Shown: piece by piece, positions 22,888 to 30,353 of the stretch
Layout of the letters: the number at the start of each line of letters is the position of its first letter
Position numbering within the stretch: position 1 is the first letter of the stretch
Assembly (NCBI RefSeq): GCF_001547755.1
Contig: NZ_AP013042.1
Span: forward strand, 1,054,001 to 1,118,000
From: an endosymbiont of Bathymodiolus septemdierum str. Myojin knoll
Lineage (GTDB): Bacteria; Pseudomonadota; Gammaproteobacteria; PS1; Pseudothioglobaceae
Reading direction: 5' to 3'
Length of the DNA: 64,000 bases
Translations under genes and position numbers: made by a program
Notes under the pieces: generated by a model
What the model saw: only the letters and a program-made list of their open reading frames with translations
Databases searched by the model: none
Told to the model about the DNA's origin: nothing

Positions 22888-23055
22888 GTTATAGACCCCT
22901 CCCTCTCTCTGGTCTGATATACTAAATAAATATGTGCAAAGACATTCTGGCTAGTTATAGACCCCTCCCTCTCTCTGGTCTGATATACTTTCGGCAGTCG
23001 CCTTAGTCGGTGGTGGCTCGTTATAGACCCCTCCCTCTCTCTGGTCTGATATACT
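22888..23055 (+). CRISPR. Type II-C CRISPR array, 3 repeats and 2 spacers
   Basis: Three identical 36-base repeats lie at 22888-22923, 22954-22989 and 23020-23055. They begin GTTATAGACCCC and end GGTCTGATATACT. Two spacers are exactly 30 bases each (22924-22953 and 22990-23019). Orientation + is set by the tracrRNA anti-repeat at 28924, which is complementary to this strand. The 3' end TGATATACT is an extended -10 promoter motif, the arrangement known from Neisseria type II-C arrays, where each repeat starts its own crRNA. The array is short for a system with all genes present. Confidence 0.97.
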
Positions 23056-23109
23056 ACAAAGCCACACAACTCTTATATATCAAGAGTTGTGTGGCTTTGT
23101 AGTATGCGT
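23051..23109 (+). terminator. 24-bp perfect hairpin ending the array transcript
   Basis: The arms 23051-23074 and 23082-23105 pair without mismatch around a 7-base loop and are followed by GCG and a T5 run. The first five bases of the left arm are the last five of the terminal repeat. It sits between the array and the convergent cas2 end (23113) and probably terminates transcription from the array. Confidence 0.75.
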
Positions 23110-23112
23110 TTT

Positions 23113-23442
23113 TCAAAATAATAATAGTTGTTTGCCTGCACTTTTCTCTGTTTTTTTAACTGATCCAAGTAATATTTCCATGCGCGCATATTGCTTTTCG
23201 GTAACTTGTAACATTCTAATGTTTCCCTTGGGTGGCAATATAGATTTTAAGTATTTTAAATGTGATTCTACACTATCCAATCCTTTGCAAACCCTTGAAT
23301 ATACAGAAAATTGCAACATAATAAATCCATCTTTTAATAGGTATCGCCTGAAAACGGTATAAACTCTTTTATCCTGTTTTGTTTTAGTTGGTAAGTCAAA
23401 AAATACAATTAATCGCATAAAACGATCATTTTTATTGAGCAT
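23113..23442 (-). CDS. cas2: CRISPR-associated endoribonuclease-like protein Cas2
   Basis: 109 residues from ATG 23442, which overlaps the cas1 stop by 11 bases; the longer frame from 23487 would overlap cas1 further. The ferredoxin fold starts MRLIVFFDLPTKTKQDKR with the conserved aspartate, and VFRRYLLKDGFIMLQFSVY is typical of type II Cas2. With Cas1 it forms the spacer-integration complex. Confidence 0.94.
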   Translation of the reverse strand: MLNKNDRFMRLIVFFDLPTKTKQDKRVYTVFRRYLLKDGFIMLQFSVYSRVCKGLDSVESHLKYLKSILPPKGNIRMLQVTEKQYARMEILLGSVKKTEKSAGKQLLLF

Positions 23443-24322
23443 GTCTTGGTAATAACAACAAATCAATATCTTGATGTTCGCTGGCACTTAACAAACCAAA
23501 TACCATCATTTGAATAGCGTTCAATAGTGTTGTTTTTTCTTGCTTAAACACAACCTGTTTATTTAAAATATTAACCAAATCAGCGCGCATTTTAAAAGTT
23601 AACTTAGTGCCTGTCTTAGATGGATTGAGCAAATACACTTCAAAATCAATAAACGCTCTAAAAGGTTCTATTAAATCATCCACCAAATTAAAGGCATTTA
23701 ATTCATTTTTATGATGAAAACCAAATGCTGGAACAAAGCCACTAGCACTGATGCTCCTAGCAATCGCAGAACGTACAATACTATAGCCATAGTCTAAGGC
23801 AGAGTTTCTAATATCATTAGTATTATTGCGTTTAAAATTCTCAAACAATGTTCTCCAATAAATTGTCGCCGCATATGCCTCCCTATTGGTCTTATCTGCC
23901 GATTGCACTTTAGATGCGATTAAACTAAGCTGTTTATTAGGTTGTTTGGTAATTTTTATTAAAGTTTGCTGCTGGTTTAATATCTTTGCTTTAACAATTT
24001 TTTGCCACACTCTATTTTTAAAAGATTGCGACCAGTTATTTTGTAAAAATGCATGTTTCGTCATTCTACTATGTTGATAAAAAGGGTGGAATACACCAAT
24101 AGGCGTGTATTTTTCATCTGAAAAAATAACAACAATATTACTATCTGCACAATGCGACATAAAAACGGCAGTCATTGTTACTTGCGGATTTTCAATAACA
24201 ATAGCAGATACTTCACTAATGGCAATATTTGCATCTTCATCATCTAAACGCCTAAGCAAAATATTACCATTTTTAATGGATAATTTGCAAGGGTTACTGA
24301 TTAATAGCGTTTGCCACGACAT
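23432..24322 (-). CDS. cas1: CRISPR-associated integrase Cas1 (type II)
   Basis: 296 residues, beginning MSWQTLLISNPCKLSI as in type II Cas1. The metal-site region FHHKNELNAFNLVDDLIEPFR carries the conserved His and Asp, and ALDYGYSIVRSAI precedes it. It integrates new spacers with Cas2. The original upstream sequence, the end of cas9, is now separated by IS256: the start codon is 9 bases from the IS end, and its only purine-rich leader is AGGG inside the IS inverted repeat. Confidence 0.95.
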   Translation of the reverse strand: MSWQTLLISNPCKLSIKNGNILLRRLDDEDANIAISEVSAIVIENPQVTMTAVFMSHCADSNIVVIFSDEKYTPIGVFHPFYQHSRMTKHAFLQNNWSQSFKNRVWQKIVKAKILNQQQTLIKITKQPNKQLSLIASKVQSADKTNREAYAATIYWRTLFENFKRNNTNDIRNSALDYGYSIVRSAIARSISASGFVPAFGFHHKNELNAFNLVDDLIEPFRAFIDFEVYLLNPSKTGTKLTFKMRADLVNILNKQVVFKQEKTTLLNAIQMMVFGLLSASEHQDIDLLLLPRHAQ

Positions 24323-24330
24323 TTTATTTT

Positions 24331-25710
24331 GACCCTGTAAACCAGATTGTGTAAACCCTCATATTTTATAATCCCTAAAAAGGAGAAAAAACATGAGTAA
24401 CGCAACACTAAGAAAAAACCAAAAGAACCAACTGAACAACACAGGCATTAACCAACAAAAACTCCGTGCTTTTGCTGGTGAGCTTGCCAAAGACATCCAC
24501 ACCCAAGATGACTTGGCAGACTTGTCTGCATCATTGGTTAAGATGACCATAGAAGCGGCACTTGGTGCTGAGATGGAACATCACCTTGGCTATCCAAAAT
24601 ATGGACAAAATGGCAATGAATCTAATGCCAGTAATAACGCTCGCAATGGCTACTACTCTAAAATTGTTAAAGGTAATCATGGCGAAGTTGAACTTGCTAT
24701 TCCAAGGGATCGCAATGCTAACTTTGAGCCTGCTATCATTGAGAAGGGTCAAACCAGATTAGGCGCTTTTGATAATCAAATATTAAGCCTGTATGCCAAA
24801 GGCATGAGCACCCGTGATATTGTCACAACCTTTAAAGAGATGTATGACGCTGACATCTCAGCAACGTTGGTGTCCAATGTAACACAAGCGGTTATTACTC
24901 AAGCCACAGAGTGGCGTAATCGTCCATTGGATGAGATTTACCCCATTGTTTATTTAGACGGTATTGTCATTAAAGTTAGGCAAGATAAACAAATCATTAA
25001 AAAGACCATGTACATTGCCCTAGGCGTTAATCTTGAGGGTAAAAAAGAATGTCTTGGCTTATGGTTGTCCAAAAATGAATCTTCTAAGTTCTGGTTGGGC
25101 GTTCTTAACGATATTGCTAATCGTGGCGTAAAAGACATTCTGATCGCCTCAGTCGATGGGTTAACGGGATTCCCCGAAGCTATTAATGCCGTGTTCCCAC
25201 AGGCTGATGTACAACTGTGTATTGTTCATATGGTTCGCAACTCGCTTAAATATGTGGGCTATAAGGAACATAAGAATGTTGCTAGTGATTTAAAGCAAAT
25301 CTATCAGTCTATTACTGAAGAAGAAGCTTTATTGGCGTTAGATGAGTTTGAGTATAAATGGGATACGCAGTTCCCAAGTATCGCCAAATCGTGGCGACGA
25401 AATTGGGATAATGTTGCTACTCTATTTGCTTATCCTGAGGCAATCAGAAAGGCAATCTATACCACTAATGCCATTGAATCCTTAAACTCAATGATTAGAA
25501 AATCTATCAAAAACAGAAAGATTTTTAATCATGATAACTCTGCTTTTAAAGTGGTCTTTTTAGCCATTGAAGCAGCCAGTAAGAAATGGACAATGCCAAT
25601 ACGAAATTGGTCACAAGCAATGAATCAGTTTATAATCCTACATGAGGATAGATTAAAGGATTATGTCTGATTTTTGAAAGAGGTGTTTACACAATCTGGT
25701 TTACAGGGTC
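24331..25710 (+). mobile_element. IS256-family insertion sequence, intact
   Basis: The 1380-bp element has perfect 26-bp terminal inverted repeats (24331-24356 and 25685-25710, starting GACCCTGTAAACCAGATTG) and an 8-bp target duplication TTTATTTT (24323-24330 and 25711-25718). Identical ends and target sites indicate a recent insertion. It lies between cas9 and cas1, in opposite orientation. Confidence 0.97.
24393..25670 (+). CDS. IS256-family (Mutator-type) transposase
   Basis: 425 residues, full length. The DDE residues appear in VYLDGIVIKV, IASVDGLTGFPEAI and the glutamate of TTNAIESLNSMIRKSI; CIVHMVRNSLKYV is the family's histidine motif. A clear AAAAGGAG ribosome binding site precedes the ATG. 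No frameshift or stop is seen, so the element may still be active. Confidence 0.96.
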   Translation: MSNATLRKNQKNQLNNTGINQQKLRAFAGELAKDIHTQDDLADLSASLVKMTIEAALGAEMEHHLGYPKYGQNGNESNASNNARNGYYSKIVKGNHGEVELAIPRDRNANFEPAIIEKGQTRLGAFDNQILSLYAKGMSTRDIVTTFKEMYDADISATLVSNVTQAVITQATEWRNRPLDEIYPIVYLDGIVIKVRQDKQIIKKTMYIALGVNLEGKKECLGLWLSKNESSKFWLGVLNDIANRGVKDILIASVDGLTGFPEAINAVFPQADVQLCIVHMVRNSLKYVGYKEHKNVASDLKQIYQSITEEEALLALDEFEYKWDTQFPSIAKSWRRNWDNVATLFAYPEAIRKAIYTTNAIESLNSMIRKSIKNRKIFNHDNSAFKVVFLAIEAASKKWTMPIRNWSQAMNQFIILHEDRLKDYV

Positions 25711-25711
25711 T

Positions 25712-28700
25712 TTATTTTTTCTTTGGCTTGCTCTTATACATTTGTTTAATCAGAGGTAGTCGTTTTTCATTTTTCACTTCCGCTATGTCTCCTAATACCG
25801 ATACTTGATATTTTTTTAAAGATGCCAATCCTGATCCAGTTGCAAGCAAAATATCTTTATACCCTTTTTTATTATCAGATTCTTTTCTTTCAATTTCAGC
25901 TTTATAATTCTGCTGAAAGGCAATTTTTCCATCTGATCTGATATATTTAAAATAAGCCAAAAGATGCTTACTATCTTTGGTTTTAGTTTTCTTGGTTTTA
26001 AACTCAATCAAATCATCTTTAAACAAAGAAAATAAAAACTGAACGTTTTTATCTATTTCATTACCTTTCAAATCCAGTTCTGGAAAATCATCTTTATAAA
26101 AATCGGCTGGATAAAATACTATAAATTGATATTTATTTTTTGCATTTTTAAACACATCAACTCTTTGAATGACCCCATTTTCTGCCATACCATTATTAAC
26201 TGGGAATTTATACTTTCCACCCGTGTCTTTTGGCTTGATAGTCGCTTTATGCGCTGCTCCTGAAATTTTTCGCCTTGGTGCGAATGAAACAAAAATATCA
26301 CCGACACTTTCATCAAGTACACTCTTGAAATCAGAAAAAGGCGGGGTGAATTTTATTTTTCTTTCTTTGGCAGTTTGATATTTGAAGTCTTCTCTTTTAG
26401 CGGAAATAGTTGACATTCTTTGCACTTCGCCTTGTGTGGCAAATGCCAAAATAATAGCGTCTTCAGCATGATGTAGATTGTTATCTCTATTTTTCTCTTC
26501 AATACCCCAGTTATAACGCAATTGATTTGTCAATGCACCACTTCTGACCTTTACCTTTTGTTTAATCGTATCATTTTGACTAAATTGCAAATGATTTTGC
26601 ACAAAATTTTTAATAAATCTTGAAGCATAAGCCGTATCGTTTAGATTGCGTGCTAAAAAACCACTTTCTGGGTTTTTAATATCATCGCTAAAATCATTGC
26701 CTCGTCTTGGTGGTAGTGTCGTATTAAGCAGTTTATGTTTCTTTGCCTGCTTAATGCCAGCAAAGCTACTCACATAATTTTTATATTCTTGCCATTCTTT
26801 ACTGTCTTTACTGTTTTTATCGCTATTTGTCAAATATTCAAATGGCGTTTGGTTTGCTTTATTTTGATTTTCTGCAGATAAACACAAAGCCTTATTATTC
26901 AAACTATTATCAAAAGTTCTGCTCCATGGCAAAATATGATCAATTTCCACATACCCATCTTCCAGTAGTTTGTTTATCTCGATTTCTTTTTTAGAATAGA
27001 TACATTTTCCATGCTGTTGTTCATACAATCTTAATTTCAACAAGTCTCTACCTGAACCTTCATACTTAAAAATTTCTAAAAACTTTACCCTGATTGCTTC
27101 TTTTTCTTGTGCATATTCCTTTTGCCCTGTTTGGATTTCAAACTTTATTTTTTTAGAATTTTTTAACTCCCTTGCCATTTCAATATGCATCGCATCAAAA
27201 CTACCATGCTTACGAATAACAGCATTTAGCACTTTTCTAAATTGTGAAAAAACACGCTTAACTGTTGGACTGGTAATTTGATAATTCTCTTCTTTATTGA
27301 GAGGTCGTAAATATTGTTGTGGATTAGCGGCTTTAAATTGAGAATGGTGTTTATATTCAGAATGAGCAACAGCGTCATGATATTTTAACCCTTGACATAA
27401 ATAAGGTAATAATTTGTTGATAGCTTTCAAGGACAAACTATTAAACCCCGAAAAAGATATATTTAACAAGCTATTAATCGCTTCATTTACAATAGTTTTA
27501 TCCATATTAAAGTCATTAAAAACTTGCTTTTTTAAGTCTTGTGTTGCACTTTTATCATCTTTTTGATAACTTAAAATCTCAGCAATTTTATTAAACTTAT
27601 CTTTGTCAATAAATAACAAATCAAAAACTTCTTTATTTAATTCTTTTTTAATAGAGTGGTAGCCATTTAATTTGCCAAAAACAGTGTTCTCAACCTTAGT
27701 GTCATATTTAACGCCGTTAAATTTTTGCGACTCTGAAAGAGATAAAATACTGCGAATACTGCTATATTTATAACACTTAAACTTTTCTTTCTTATCATCT
27801 AAAACTTGTTTTTCTAATAAGACTTTTTGCTCAGGCGTAAGCCAATCCTCTAGTTTATAAAAATCTTCTATTTTGGCTTTAATGTTCGTTTTATATTCAA
27901 AATTTTGATGATAATCTAGTTGTTTAAATTTAAAGGCATCGGTTATTTTTAGTTGTTTTCTTAGGGTTGTGTATTTAACTTCTTTTATACTATAAAAAAT
28001 ATCAAGCAATTTATCAAATTCTGAAATCTCAAATAACCGCTTGATTTCACCCGTACTTTTATCAATTAAATCGGTATTGTTGATTTTACTAAGTAAGGTT
28101 GATTTTTCTACTGAAAAACAATTTTTTGCTCCTCTATATTCCTGAGTTTCAAAAGTGCATTTTCCAACTAAATCGGCTTTAAACTTTATTGGTCTTTGTG
28201 TAAAAGCAATATCTTTATAATGTTCTTTCAATCCATCAGTTGCAAATTGATTACCAAAATCTCTTTGTGATTCAAATAACACATCAATCTCTTTTCTTAA
28301 TAAATCACGAGAAATTGAATGCTTGTATTGATCTTTTTTATTGCGCCTTATTCTATTATCTGGATAACGATTTTCTGTATAAAGCATTTCTCCAATCGTT
28401 TTATAGCCTAATTCATTCATTTTCTTTTCATTCTTACTAATACCGCTTAAAACTTTTTTCTTATCGGTATTGCCACTTTCTTCTGATTTACGATTAGATT
28501 GATAAGCTCGTCTTTTGGCAATATGATACAAAACCCTTGCCCACTCTTTGTTATTGAGCTGTTGTTCTAAACCTTTTGCCCGTAGTTGCCAGATATCTAA
28601 ACGATTTTTACTATTAAATAGATGTTTAAATTCTGATTTTGAAAGTAATTTATGGGCAATAAATAACTTTTTGAGTTGGTTAAGTCGTTGTTTTCTACGA

Positions 28701-28876
28701 CTTAAAACTCTTCTACCCCCTCTAAAACTTCGCCTAACAGCAGCAAGCGTTTTCCCCTCTCTATTAGTCGATTGAGTGAAAATACGCACCCCTGAATCAA
28801 TAATTTTATTATTCTTATCATTAACCAATGCCCATCCAACTGAAGCGACACCTAAATCAACACCTAATATTCTCAT
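25712..28876 (-). CDS. cas9: Cas9 endonuclease, type II-C
   Basis: 1054 residues, compact II-C size. RuvC-I is ILGVDLGVASVGWAL with D7; the arginine-rich bridge helix spans about 46-72 (RRSFRGGRRVLSRRKQR); RuvC-II is MHIEMAREL with E566; HNH is YVEIDHILPWSRTFDNS with D646, H647 and N670; RuvC-III is HHAEDAIILAF with H802/H803 and D806. All nuclease residues are therefore present. A PAM-interacting C-terminal domain (from about 850) ends in a lysine-rich tail. The stop TAA lies inside the IS256 target duplication; before the insertion cas1 began one base further on. Confidence 0.97.
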   Translation of the reverse strand: MRILGVDLGVASVGWALVNDKNNKIIDSGVRIFTQSTNREGKTLAAVRRSFRGGRRVLSRRKQRLNQLKKLFIAHKLLSKSEFKHLFNSKNRLDIWQLRAKGLEQQLNNKEWARVLYHIAKRRAYQSNRKSEESGNTDKKKVLSGISKNEKKMNELGYKTIGEMLYTENRYPDNRIRRNKKDQYKHSISRDLLRKEIDVLFESQRDFGNQFATDGLKEHYKDIAFTQRPIKFKADLVGKCTFETQEYRGAKNCFSVEKSTLLSKINNTDLIDKSTGEIKRLFEISEFDKLLDIFYSIKEVKYTTLRKQLKITDAFKFKQLDYHQNFEYKTNIKAKIEDFYKLEDWLTPEQKVLLEKQVLDDKKEKFKCYKYSSIRSILSLSESQKFNGVKYDTKVENTVFGKLNGYHSIKKELNKEVFDLLFIDKDKFNKIAEILSYQKDDKSATQDLKKQVFNDFNMDKTIVNEAINSLLNISFSGFNSLSLKAINKLLPYLCQGLKYHDAVAHSEYKHHSQFKAANPQQYLRPLNKEENYQITSPTVKRVFSQFRKVLNAVIRKHGSFDAMHIEMARELKNSKKIKFEIQTGQKEYAQEKEAIRVKFLEIFKYEGSGRDLLKLRLYEQQHGKCIYSKKEIEINKLLEDGYVEIDHILPWSRTFDNSLNNKALCLSAENQNKANQTPFEYLTNSDKNSKDSKEWQEYKNYVSSFAGIKQAKKHKLLNTTLPPRRGNDFSDDIKNPESGFLARNLNDTAYASRFIKNFVQNHLQFSQNDTIKQKVKVRSGALTNQLRYNWGIEEKNRDNNLHHAEDAIILAFATQGEVQRMSTISAKREDFKYQTAKERKIKFTPPFSDFKSVLDESVGDIFVSFAPRRKISGAAHKATIKPKDTGGKYKFPVNNGMAENGVIQRVDVFKNAKNKYQFIVFYPADFYKDDFPELDLKGNEIDKNVQFLFSLFKDDLIEFKTKKTKTKDSKHLLAYFKYIRSDGKIAFQQNYKAEIERKESDNKKGYKDILLATGSGLASLKKYQVSVLGDIAEVKNEKRLPLIKQMYKSKPKKK

Positions 28877-28916: not shown

Positions 28917-29036
28917 TCTTAATAGTATGTCATACCAAGAGAGAGGGAGGATTTACTATAATAAGGTTTCTAGGTTTCTTGATCCGAAAGGCTCTAATAT
29001 TTATATTATCCTCAATAAGAAACCACACTTTTTTTT
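28917..29036 (+). ncRNA. tracrRNA of the type II-C system
   Basis: Bases 28924-28960 form an anti-repeat: AGTATGTCATACCAAGAGAG continues to GGGAGG and pairs along nearly the whole CRISPR repeat, with a bulge near the 3' side (ATTTACTATA against the repeat's 5' end). It continues ATAATAAGG, the same junction sequence as in the Neisseria tracrRNA (ACAATAAGG). The tail forms a stem GGTTTCTT (28973-28980)/AAGAAACC (29017-29024), followed by T8 at 29029-29036, a plausible terminator. The predicted length is about 120 bases. It is transcribed divergently from cas9, away from the array. Confidence 0.9.
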
Positions 29037-29039
29037 AAA

Positions 29040-29071
29040 CCCTACACAATGGTTATTGTATAGGGTTTTTT
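29040..29071 (+). terminator. Rho-independent terminator after tracrRNA
   Basis: The stem CCCTACACAAT/ATTGTATAGGG with one mismatch is followed by six T residues. It is a second terminator for the tracrRNA and lies at the 3' end of the convergent murD. Confidence 0.85.
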
Positions 29072-30353
29072 AATGGGCGCTATTCACATAATCTTTAAAC
29101 ATTCTTCCACGCTGTTCAAAGTTGTCAAACATATCAAAACTGGCACAGGCTGGAGATAATAGGATTGCACCCTTGATAATAAGGGATTGAGCGGTGGTGA
29201 TGGCGTCTTCTAAGGTGTTTGCCAAGGTTGTGTTGGTGATGGATTTTTCAAATTTGTGGGTATCTTTGCCGATTAGGACGACGGGGATTTTATGCTCGTT
29301 AATGAGGGTGAATAGCGGGTGATAATCCTCTTGTTTAGCGACGCCGCCCATAATGAGAATGATGTTTTTATGGGTGGAAATTAGGGCTTGAATGGCGGTG
29401 ATTGTGGAGATGGCGTTGGTGGCTTTTGAATCATTGTAGTAAGTAATGTTGTTTTTTTCTGTAACTTTTTCCAGGCGGTGCTCTAAGCCTTTGAAGGTTT
29501 TTAAGGTGGCAATCATCGCCTCCGTGCTCAATCCAATTTGGTCGCCAAGACTAAGTGCGGCTAAGGCATTTTTGATATTATGTTCACCGATGAGTGGCAT
29601 ATCATCAATACACATTAATGAAGTATCGCCTTTGAGTAGATAAGTGCTATTGTGACAAGTGACGGTGCCGAAATCTTTAGGATTTTTAGGTATGTCCATA
29701 CCAAAAATTTTACTGGAAGATTGTTTAGATGTCAGGGGTTCGTCGATATTAATGACGGAGGTTTGGCAATGTGTATAGAGGCTGAGTTTAGATTGTGCAT
29801 AATGCTCAAAACTTAGGTAGCGGTCTAAATGGTCGGGGGTAATGTTAAGTACCACGCCAGTGAATAGCCTTAAATTTTGCGTGTAATCTAATTGGTAGCT
29901 GGAAAGTTCTAACACATAATACGCAATATCATCATCCAGGCAATCAAGAGCAGGTTTGCCAATATTACCACCGATAGCGACTTTTTTGCCATCATTGGCA
30001 ATCATCTCACCAAATAATTGAGTAACGGTAGATTTTCCATTAGAGCCAGTAATACCAATGATGGGGGCTTGAGCGTGACGAGAAAATAGTTCTATGTCGC
30101 TGACAATAGAGATATTTTGCTGCTTTGCCCAAAGGACGATGGGCTCAGTTTGAGCGATACCAGGGCTGATGAAAATCTCGTCAATATCAGCGAGCAGGTC
30201 CAAGGTCCAGTCGCCGAGAATTGGAGATTGGGGGCAATTGTTTAATGAAGGAGGATTTTGGCGACTGTCGGCGATGCGATAAGCGATATTTTGTTTAGAT
30301 AAAAATCGTGCGATAGATAAACCTGTATCACCTAAACCTAAAACCAGTTTCAT
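29070..30353 (-). CDS. murD: UDP-N-acetylmuramoylalanine-D-glutamate ligase
   Basis: 427 residues. The N-terminal domain starts LVLGLGDTGLSIARFL, the ATP site is GITGSNGKSTVTQLF, and the C-terminal domain carries YYNDSKATNAISTI and SPACASFDMFDNFEQRG. It adds D-Glu to UDP-MurNAc-Ala. The gene stands apart from the murC-murB-ddl operon (14-18 kb) and is a single transcription unit. Confidence 0.97.
   Translation of the reverse strand: MKLVLGLGDTGLSIARFLSKQNIAYRIADSRQNPPSLNNCPQSPILGDWTLDLLADIDEIFISPGIAQTEPIVLWAKQQNISIVSDIELFSRHAQAPIIGITGSNGKSTVTQLFGEMIANDGKKVAIGGNIGKPALDCLDDDIAYYVLELSSYQLDYTQNLRLFTGVVLNITPDHLDRYLSFEHYAQSKLSLYTHCQTSVINIDEPLTSKQSSSKIFGMDIPKNPKDFGTVTCHNSTYLLKGDTSLMCIDDMPLIGEHNIKNALAALSLGDQIGLSTEAMIATLKTFKGLEHRLEKVTEKNNITYYNDSKATNAISTITAIQALISTHKNIILIMGGVAKQEDYHPLFTLINEHKIPVVLIGKDTHKFEKSITNTTLANTLEDAITTAQSLIIKGAILLSPACASFDMFDNFEQRGRMFKDYVNSAH

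Follow-up and report, generated by a model that had tools for sequence, protein, structure and literature searches.

A recent IS256-family insertion at the cas9-cas1 boundary of a type II-C CRISPR-Cas locus with a self-matching spacer in the endosymbiont of Bathymodiolus septemdierum

The window analysed, a 64,000-nucleotide stretch of the genome of the B. septemdierum endosymbiont (G000, a single contig of 1,469,434 bp, 100% complete with 0.35% contamination), contains a compact CRISPR-Cas locus with the following constituent features, given in window coordinates.

22888..23055, plus strand: CRISPR array of three identical 36-nt repeats and two 30-nt spacers
22924..22953, plus strand: spacer 1, self-match outside the array absent (up to 3 mismatches)
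22990..23019, plus strand: spacer 2, a 30/30 match to the genome's own comM at two chromosomal places
23051..23105, plus strand: perfect hairpin of 24 bp at the end of the array nearer cas2, also present in both relatives
23113..23487, minus strand: cas2 open frame of 124 aa, counted from a GTG
23432..24322, minus strand: cas1, type II (NMENI) family, 296 aa, full length
25712..28876, minus strand: cas9, type II-C, 1054 aa, full length, with RuvC and HNH motifs that align to solved Cas9 chains
28937..29072, plus strand: candidate tracrRNA with an anti-repeat, a middle stem and a terminal hairpin, running divergently from cas9

Cas9, Cas1 and Cas2 are all of full length, each belongs to the family expected of it, and the first two align with solved structures across their catalytic regions; the Cas2 domain begins at residue 24, so the true start of cas2 probably lies further in. 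From the array to the tracrRNA candidate, the long open frames comprise cas2, cas1, a transposase and cas9, with neither csn2 nor cas4, a gene content that identifies the locus as type II-C. Searches of 58 genomes, the window's own included, detected cas9 at 78% identity in no more than two others, those of its congeners G005 and G006 (the latter being BCLUESOX, the symbiont of Bathymodiolus sp. 5 South), all further Cas9 matches being at or below 41% identity. Comparison of Cas1 with that of each congener gave a dN/dS of ~0.09 (NG86), indicative of purifying constraint, and the possibility that cas1 is a pseudogene was ruled out on the grounds of this constraint and its full length, the constraint itself being silent on the time since insertion. 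Over Cas9 residues 930-1020 (window numbering), the G005 protein is only ~40% identical to the others, compared with ~80-85% over the aligned remainder, and this PAM-interacting stretch is likely to represent a domain swap changing the PAM.

Between cas9 and cas1 lies a mobile element, delimited as follows.

24323..24330, strand-neutral: left copy of the target-site duplication TTTATTTT, 8 bp
24331..25710, plus strand: IS256-family insertion sequence, 1380 bp
24331..24356, plus strand: left terminal inverted repeat, 26 bp, 26/26 complementary to the right end
24393..25670, plus strand: transposase, IS256/Mutator family, 425 aa
25685..25710, minus strand: right terminal inverted repeat, 26 bp, 26/26
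25711..25718: right copy of the target-site duplication TTTATTTT, with the cas9 stop codon inside (25712-25714)

The transposase matched the IS256-family model NF033543 with 409.6 bits (E 8.6e-123; cut-off 150) and PF00872 (Transposase_mut) with 371.5 bits; transposase type, terminal repeats and target duplication all place the element in the IS256 family. The perfect 26-bp ends and flanking 8-bp duplication described in the initial annotation were confirmed, as was the location of the cas9 stop codon within the duplication: the TAA occupies minus-strand positions 25714-25712 in the right copy, and the cas1 ATG begins at 24322. Scripted removal of the IS plus one duplicate, and joining of the flanks, regenerated ...AAAAAATAAAATGTCG, that is TAA-A-ATG, the one-base empty junction previously proposed. 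Comparison with the relatives revealed no IS at the orthologous junction in either congener, the sequence being TAA-A-ATG in G005 and a two-base TAA-TA-ATG in G006. Both the cas9 and cas1 frames survived the insertion at full length, as claimed, and the reported opposition of the transposase to the strand of cas9, cas1 and cas2 could be refined to a convergent arrangement with cas9 (3' to 3') and a divergent one from cas1 (5' to 5').

Eight other copies or fragments of the same IS are present in G000, giving nine in total, which argues that the window element is not a chance resemblance. The full 425-aa transposase frame is kept in seven of the nine, and direct duplications of 8 or 9 bp are present at six, absent at two, with one copy truncated. 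The window transposase has H293 and M367 in common with only one other copy (L007), the remaining copies that cover these sites having R and V respectively, and perfect 8-bp duplications flank both the window copy and L007. The preponderance of full transposases and the two private substitutions common to L007 point to a young insertion, in agreement with its earlier description as fresh, for which the perfect ends, the duplication and the multiple near-identical copies all speak. The sublineage comprising the window copy and L007 thus appears to have moved recently, and other sublineages seem to have moved too. By eye, the sites of two other copies (L002, C1:66052; L003, C1:1381397) coincide with terminator-like hairpins that precede runs of T; the window insertion does not lie at such a hairpin, and insertion at intrinsic terminators was set aside as a general target rule.

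The 1380 bp of IS physically separate cas1-cas2 from the transcription unit of cas9; loss of cas1-cas2 expression, the proposed consequence, is plausible but unproven. The cas strand of the IS contains 38, 23 and 20 stop codons in its three frames, so that any run-through RNA would be untranslated for about 1.4 kb, a likely setting for polarity. No intrinsic terminator above chance was detected in the region (three terminator-like sites against a shuffled mean of 3.2), and with no strong terminator found in the IS, read-through may suffice. The search for outward promoters at the left IS end gave the following best candidate.

24355-24326, minus strand: candidate fusion promoter toward cas1, TTTACA-18-CAAAAT, weak

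The -35 element of this site (TTTACA) lies in the IS end and the -10 element (CAAAAT) spans the junction, but the score of 5.83 is only at the 36th percentile among the best sites of random 200-bp stretches, and the predicted start falls approximately at the cas1 ATG. An outward IS promoter driving cas1 was consequently rejected, the search having given no more than this weak and badly placed site. Provision of a new ribosome-binding site by the IS end was likewise rejected, the best pairing (-4.6 kcal/mol) being equalled by 38% of random 35-mers and also falling outside the anti-Shine-Dalgarno core. The right end of the IS carries a better promoter-like site (9.22, 92nd percentile, equalled by 8% of random stretches), directed antisense into cas9.

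It may be argued that the insertion is neutral, either because transcription from the cas9 promoter crosses the IS or because an IS-end promoter substitutes for it, such that adaptation goes on. The terminator-like sites, no more numerous than in shuffled sequence, and the existence of the junction candidate are both compatible with this view, as are the documented ability of IS256 ends to form fusion promoters (PMC9330008, available text) and the transcription of the cas genes of Flavobacterium psychrophilum CN46 despite nearby IS elements (PMC10309648, in the portion available). However, the junction promoter is weak with a predicted start at about the cas1 ATG, the long untranslated RNA invites polarity, and the array holds only two spacers; on balance, neutrality is considered somewhat unlikely.

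With respect to the RNA components of the locus, the anti-repeat at 28937 is complementary to the repeat on direct reading, the candidate tracrRNA is near-identical in G006 over about 85 nt, and in G006 an inverted-repeat match links the array with the region upstream of cas9. The folding of the candidate is weak evidence alone (13 of 200 shuffles as stable), and an Rfam search of the locus returned no match near a gathering score. The hairpin at 23051-23105 is probably a terminator or boundary of array transcripts; it is perfect or near-perfect in the window, G005 and G006, with paired stem changes between the window and G005. The 36-nt repeat begins GTTATAG and ends with the -10-like TATACT, presumably in the manner of Neisseria-like type II-C repeat ends, and irregular repeats occur at the miaA-side end of the array in both G005 and G006. 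In the available text of PMC10309648, Flavobacterium II-C arrays are described as transcribed toward the variable end. Taken together, and by analogy with Flavobacterium, these three features suggest that spacer 2, the cas2-proximal one, is probably the newer of the two. A motif conserved on the miaA side of the arrays in the relatives was considered as a lost leader and ruled out, because G002, G010 and a second G006 contig contain it repeatedly with array-like spacing, as a component of the repeat belonging to a different CRISPR system in the genus.

The three repeats of the window, the only copies of that repeat in G000, compare with 31 in G005 and 73 in G006 (2 + 71, on two contigs) at the orthologous array, a difference drawn from two relatives only which was counted for reduced adaptation, and a small array could have causes unrelated to the IS. 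That the symbiont species does acquire spacers is indicated by the 1920 carried by 92 MAGs of the B. septemdierum symbiont, according to the available part of PMC12927875.

Spacer 1 gave no second match in its own genome at up to 3 mismatches and no exact match in viral_contigs. Spacer 2, which matched nothing in phage records or viral_contigs, has full-length 30/30 protospacers outside the array at two chromosomal places (G000 C1:1394063-1394092 and, in a partial second copy of the same gene, 1372281-1372310), with identical flanks, the chance of such a match being ~2.5e-12 per spacer and genome. The product of the gene falls in the Mg-chelatase-like family, and we take the gene to be comM, with a presumed role in recombining DNA that has been taken up. 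In 10 aligned comM orthologues of relatives (L117, L119 and L120, which do not align at the site, being left out), 3-8 of the 30 positions differ, so the spacer derives from the comM of this species itself or of a strain very close to it. None of 96 spacers from the relatives (27 from G005 and 69 from G006, three and one segments respectively being dropped as irregular) matched its own genome outside the arrays, in a search of the same kind as that which detects the window's self-match at E 1.3e-8; elsewhere, these spacers gave only two 24-nt matches at 92%, in G009 and G007. The comM gene is present once whole and three times partial in G000 C1:1360483-1394744 (L274, L103, L104), two of the fragments sharing a start at comM nt 1041, and G004, G005 and G011 contain additional 3' fragments that start at nt 1036-1072. 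These fragments suggest that comM contains a point of recurrent recombination or integration; the seven frames checked included no integrase.

Mixtures and recombination of strains are documented for B. septemdierum symbionts (PMC10469979, in the available text), and the assembly might accordingly combine an array or IS allele from one strain with comM from another, such that no single cell targets itself or has exactly this locus. However, G000 is a complete single contig of low contamination and the protospacer is present in both comM copies, which makes such mixing decidedly unlikely.

Whether the self-match could be cut would depend on the PAM, which was inferred from protospacers of the Cas9 of the relative G006 in phage loci. 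The 128 loci were chosen with two patterns derived from two kinds of G006 spacer, so that matches of these pattern-source spacers are present by construction, and the spacers compared with them were those of at least 28 nt. Among the matches listed, 25 spacers, all from G006, match these loci with 4 or fewer mismatches, and reversed spacers gave no match among the 128 loci listed. The downstream flanks, again among the matches listed, have C at position 3 in 21/25, C or T at position 4 in 19/25, and A or G at position 2 in 20/25. The loci include microvirus-like phage contigs (L146-L273) that, among the matches listed, nearly match 25 spacers of the BCLUESOX array (L105, G006 C126), three of them exactly, a strong hint that microviruses infect these mussel symbionts.

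The comM flank GCCACCCA has the C at position 3 but does not fit at positions 2 and 4. Its score of -0.05 exceeds that of 6/34 phage flanks and is below that of 28/34, among the matches listed, and is equalled or bettered by 16% of random 8-mers from the window; in its PAM-interacting part the window Cas9 is 75% identical to that of G006 and 63% to that of G005. The comM self-target is thus borderline, appearing neither clearly cut nor clearly exempt, and with the PAM half matched the spacer may have either a tolerated weak target or a silent Cas9. A harmless self-match, in which the flank offers no working PAM and Cas9 interference is fully active elsewhere, is a serious possibility, though somewhat short of an even one: the A at position 4 and C at position 2 are each rare (2/25 and 4/25, among the matches listed) and most phage flanks score higher, but the strongest position is satisfied, and the equal scores of many random 8-mers leave the flank borderline. 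The earlier suggestion that interference stays possible was sustained to the extent that no damage is apparent in cas9, the tracrRNA candidate or the repeats, but the perfect match of spacer 2 to chromosomal comM makes interference doubtful rather than preserved. Either Cas9 is inactive in the cell, or the comM target is without a working PAM.

The explanation that we regard as the probable one, with moderate confidence, is a recent transposition of an IS256-family element into the cas9-cas1 boundary, resulting in adaptation that is reduced or off in a locus at an early stage of decay, with interference doubtful. The 1380-bp element jumped into the one-base boundary of a type II-C cas9-cas1-cas2 operon in a thiotrophic symbiont of the Bathymodiolus type. 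On this reading, cas1-cas2 would now depend either on the weak junction promoter or on transcription reading through 1.4 kb of antisense RNA that is not translated, and adaptation would hence be reduced or off; the two-spacer array would be a mark of early decay; and the cell would owe its survival either to a lack of effective Cas9 expression or activity or to a poor PAM at the comM target. With an IS between cas9 and the memory-making genes, and a self-match in a tiny array, the immune locus looks partly retired: it is probably no longer learning, while the insertion itself is ordinary as well as recent.

A further account invokes CRISPR autoimmunity, the lineage having acquired spacer 2 from its own comM and survived by shutting the locus down. 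The IS would have contributed to this by preventing more self-acquisition and perhaps by dampening cas9, towards the 3' end of which the transposase is transcribed as antisense. We consider this unlikely, and return to the probable reading of a recent insertion into a locus in early decay.

What exceeds the routine is the pairing of the IS insertion with a self-matching two-spacer array. The locus constitutes a natural experiment in which the adaptation genes have been cut from cas9 while cas9, tracrRNA and array remain whole, and alleles with and without the IS both exist in the genus; moreover, the comM self-match offers a direct test of whether CRISPR in intracellular symbionts is active, tolerated or retired.

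In comparison with known systems, the element has the usual attributes of the IS256 family (an NF033543/Transposase_mut match, 26-bp terminal repeats, an 8-bp duplication and multiple copies), its insertion site being the sole difference. The locus shares the cas9-cas1-cas2 order, divergent tracrRNA and 30-nt spacers of the Neisseria-like type II-C systems, but differs in the IS between cas9 and cas1 and in the PAM of approximately N-R-C-Y-N-N-Y inferred for its relative. For self-targeting spacers, the known ways out listed in the available part of PMC6990116 are cas mutation, PAM change and anti-CRISPR proteins; there too a perfect chromosomal protospacer occurs in a viable genome, but the window differs from the cases described in that part in having comM as target, twice, together with an IS in the cas operon. 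IS insertions in type II-C loci are already known from F. psychrophilum CN46, in which, as described in the text available (PMC10309648), IS982 occupies the tracrRNA-cas9 gap and an IS256 element lies inside the array, with target duplications and all cas genes intact, as here. There the array is split yet transcribed and active, and interference was shown despite the insertions, which by analogy counts against silencing by the IS in the present locus; by way of contrast, in the window the break falls between cas9 and cas1-cas2, and a very small array carries a self-match.
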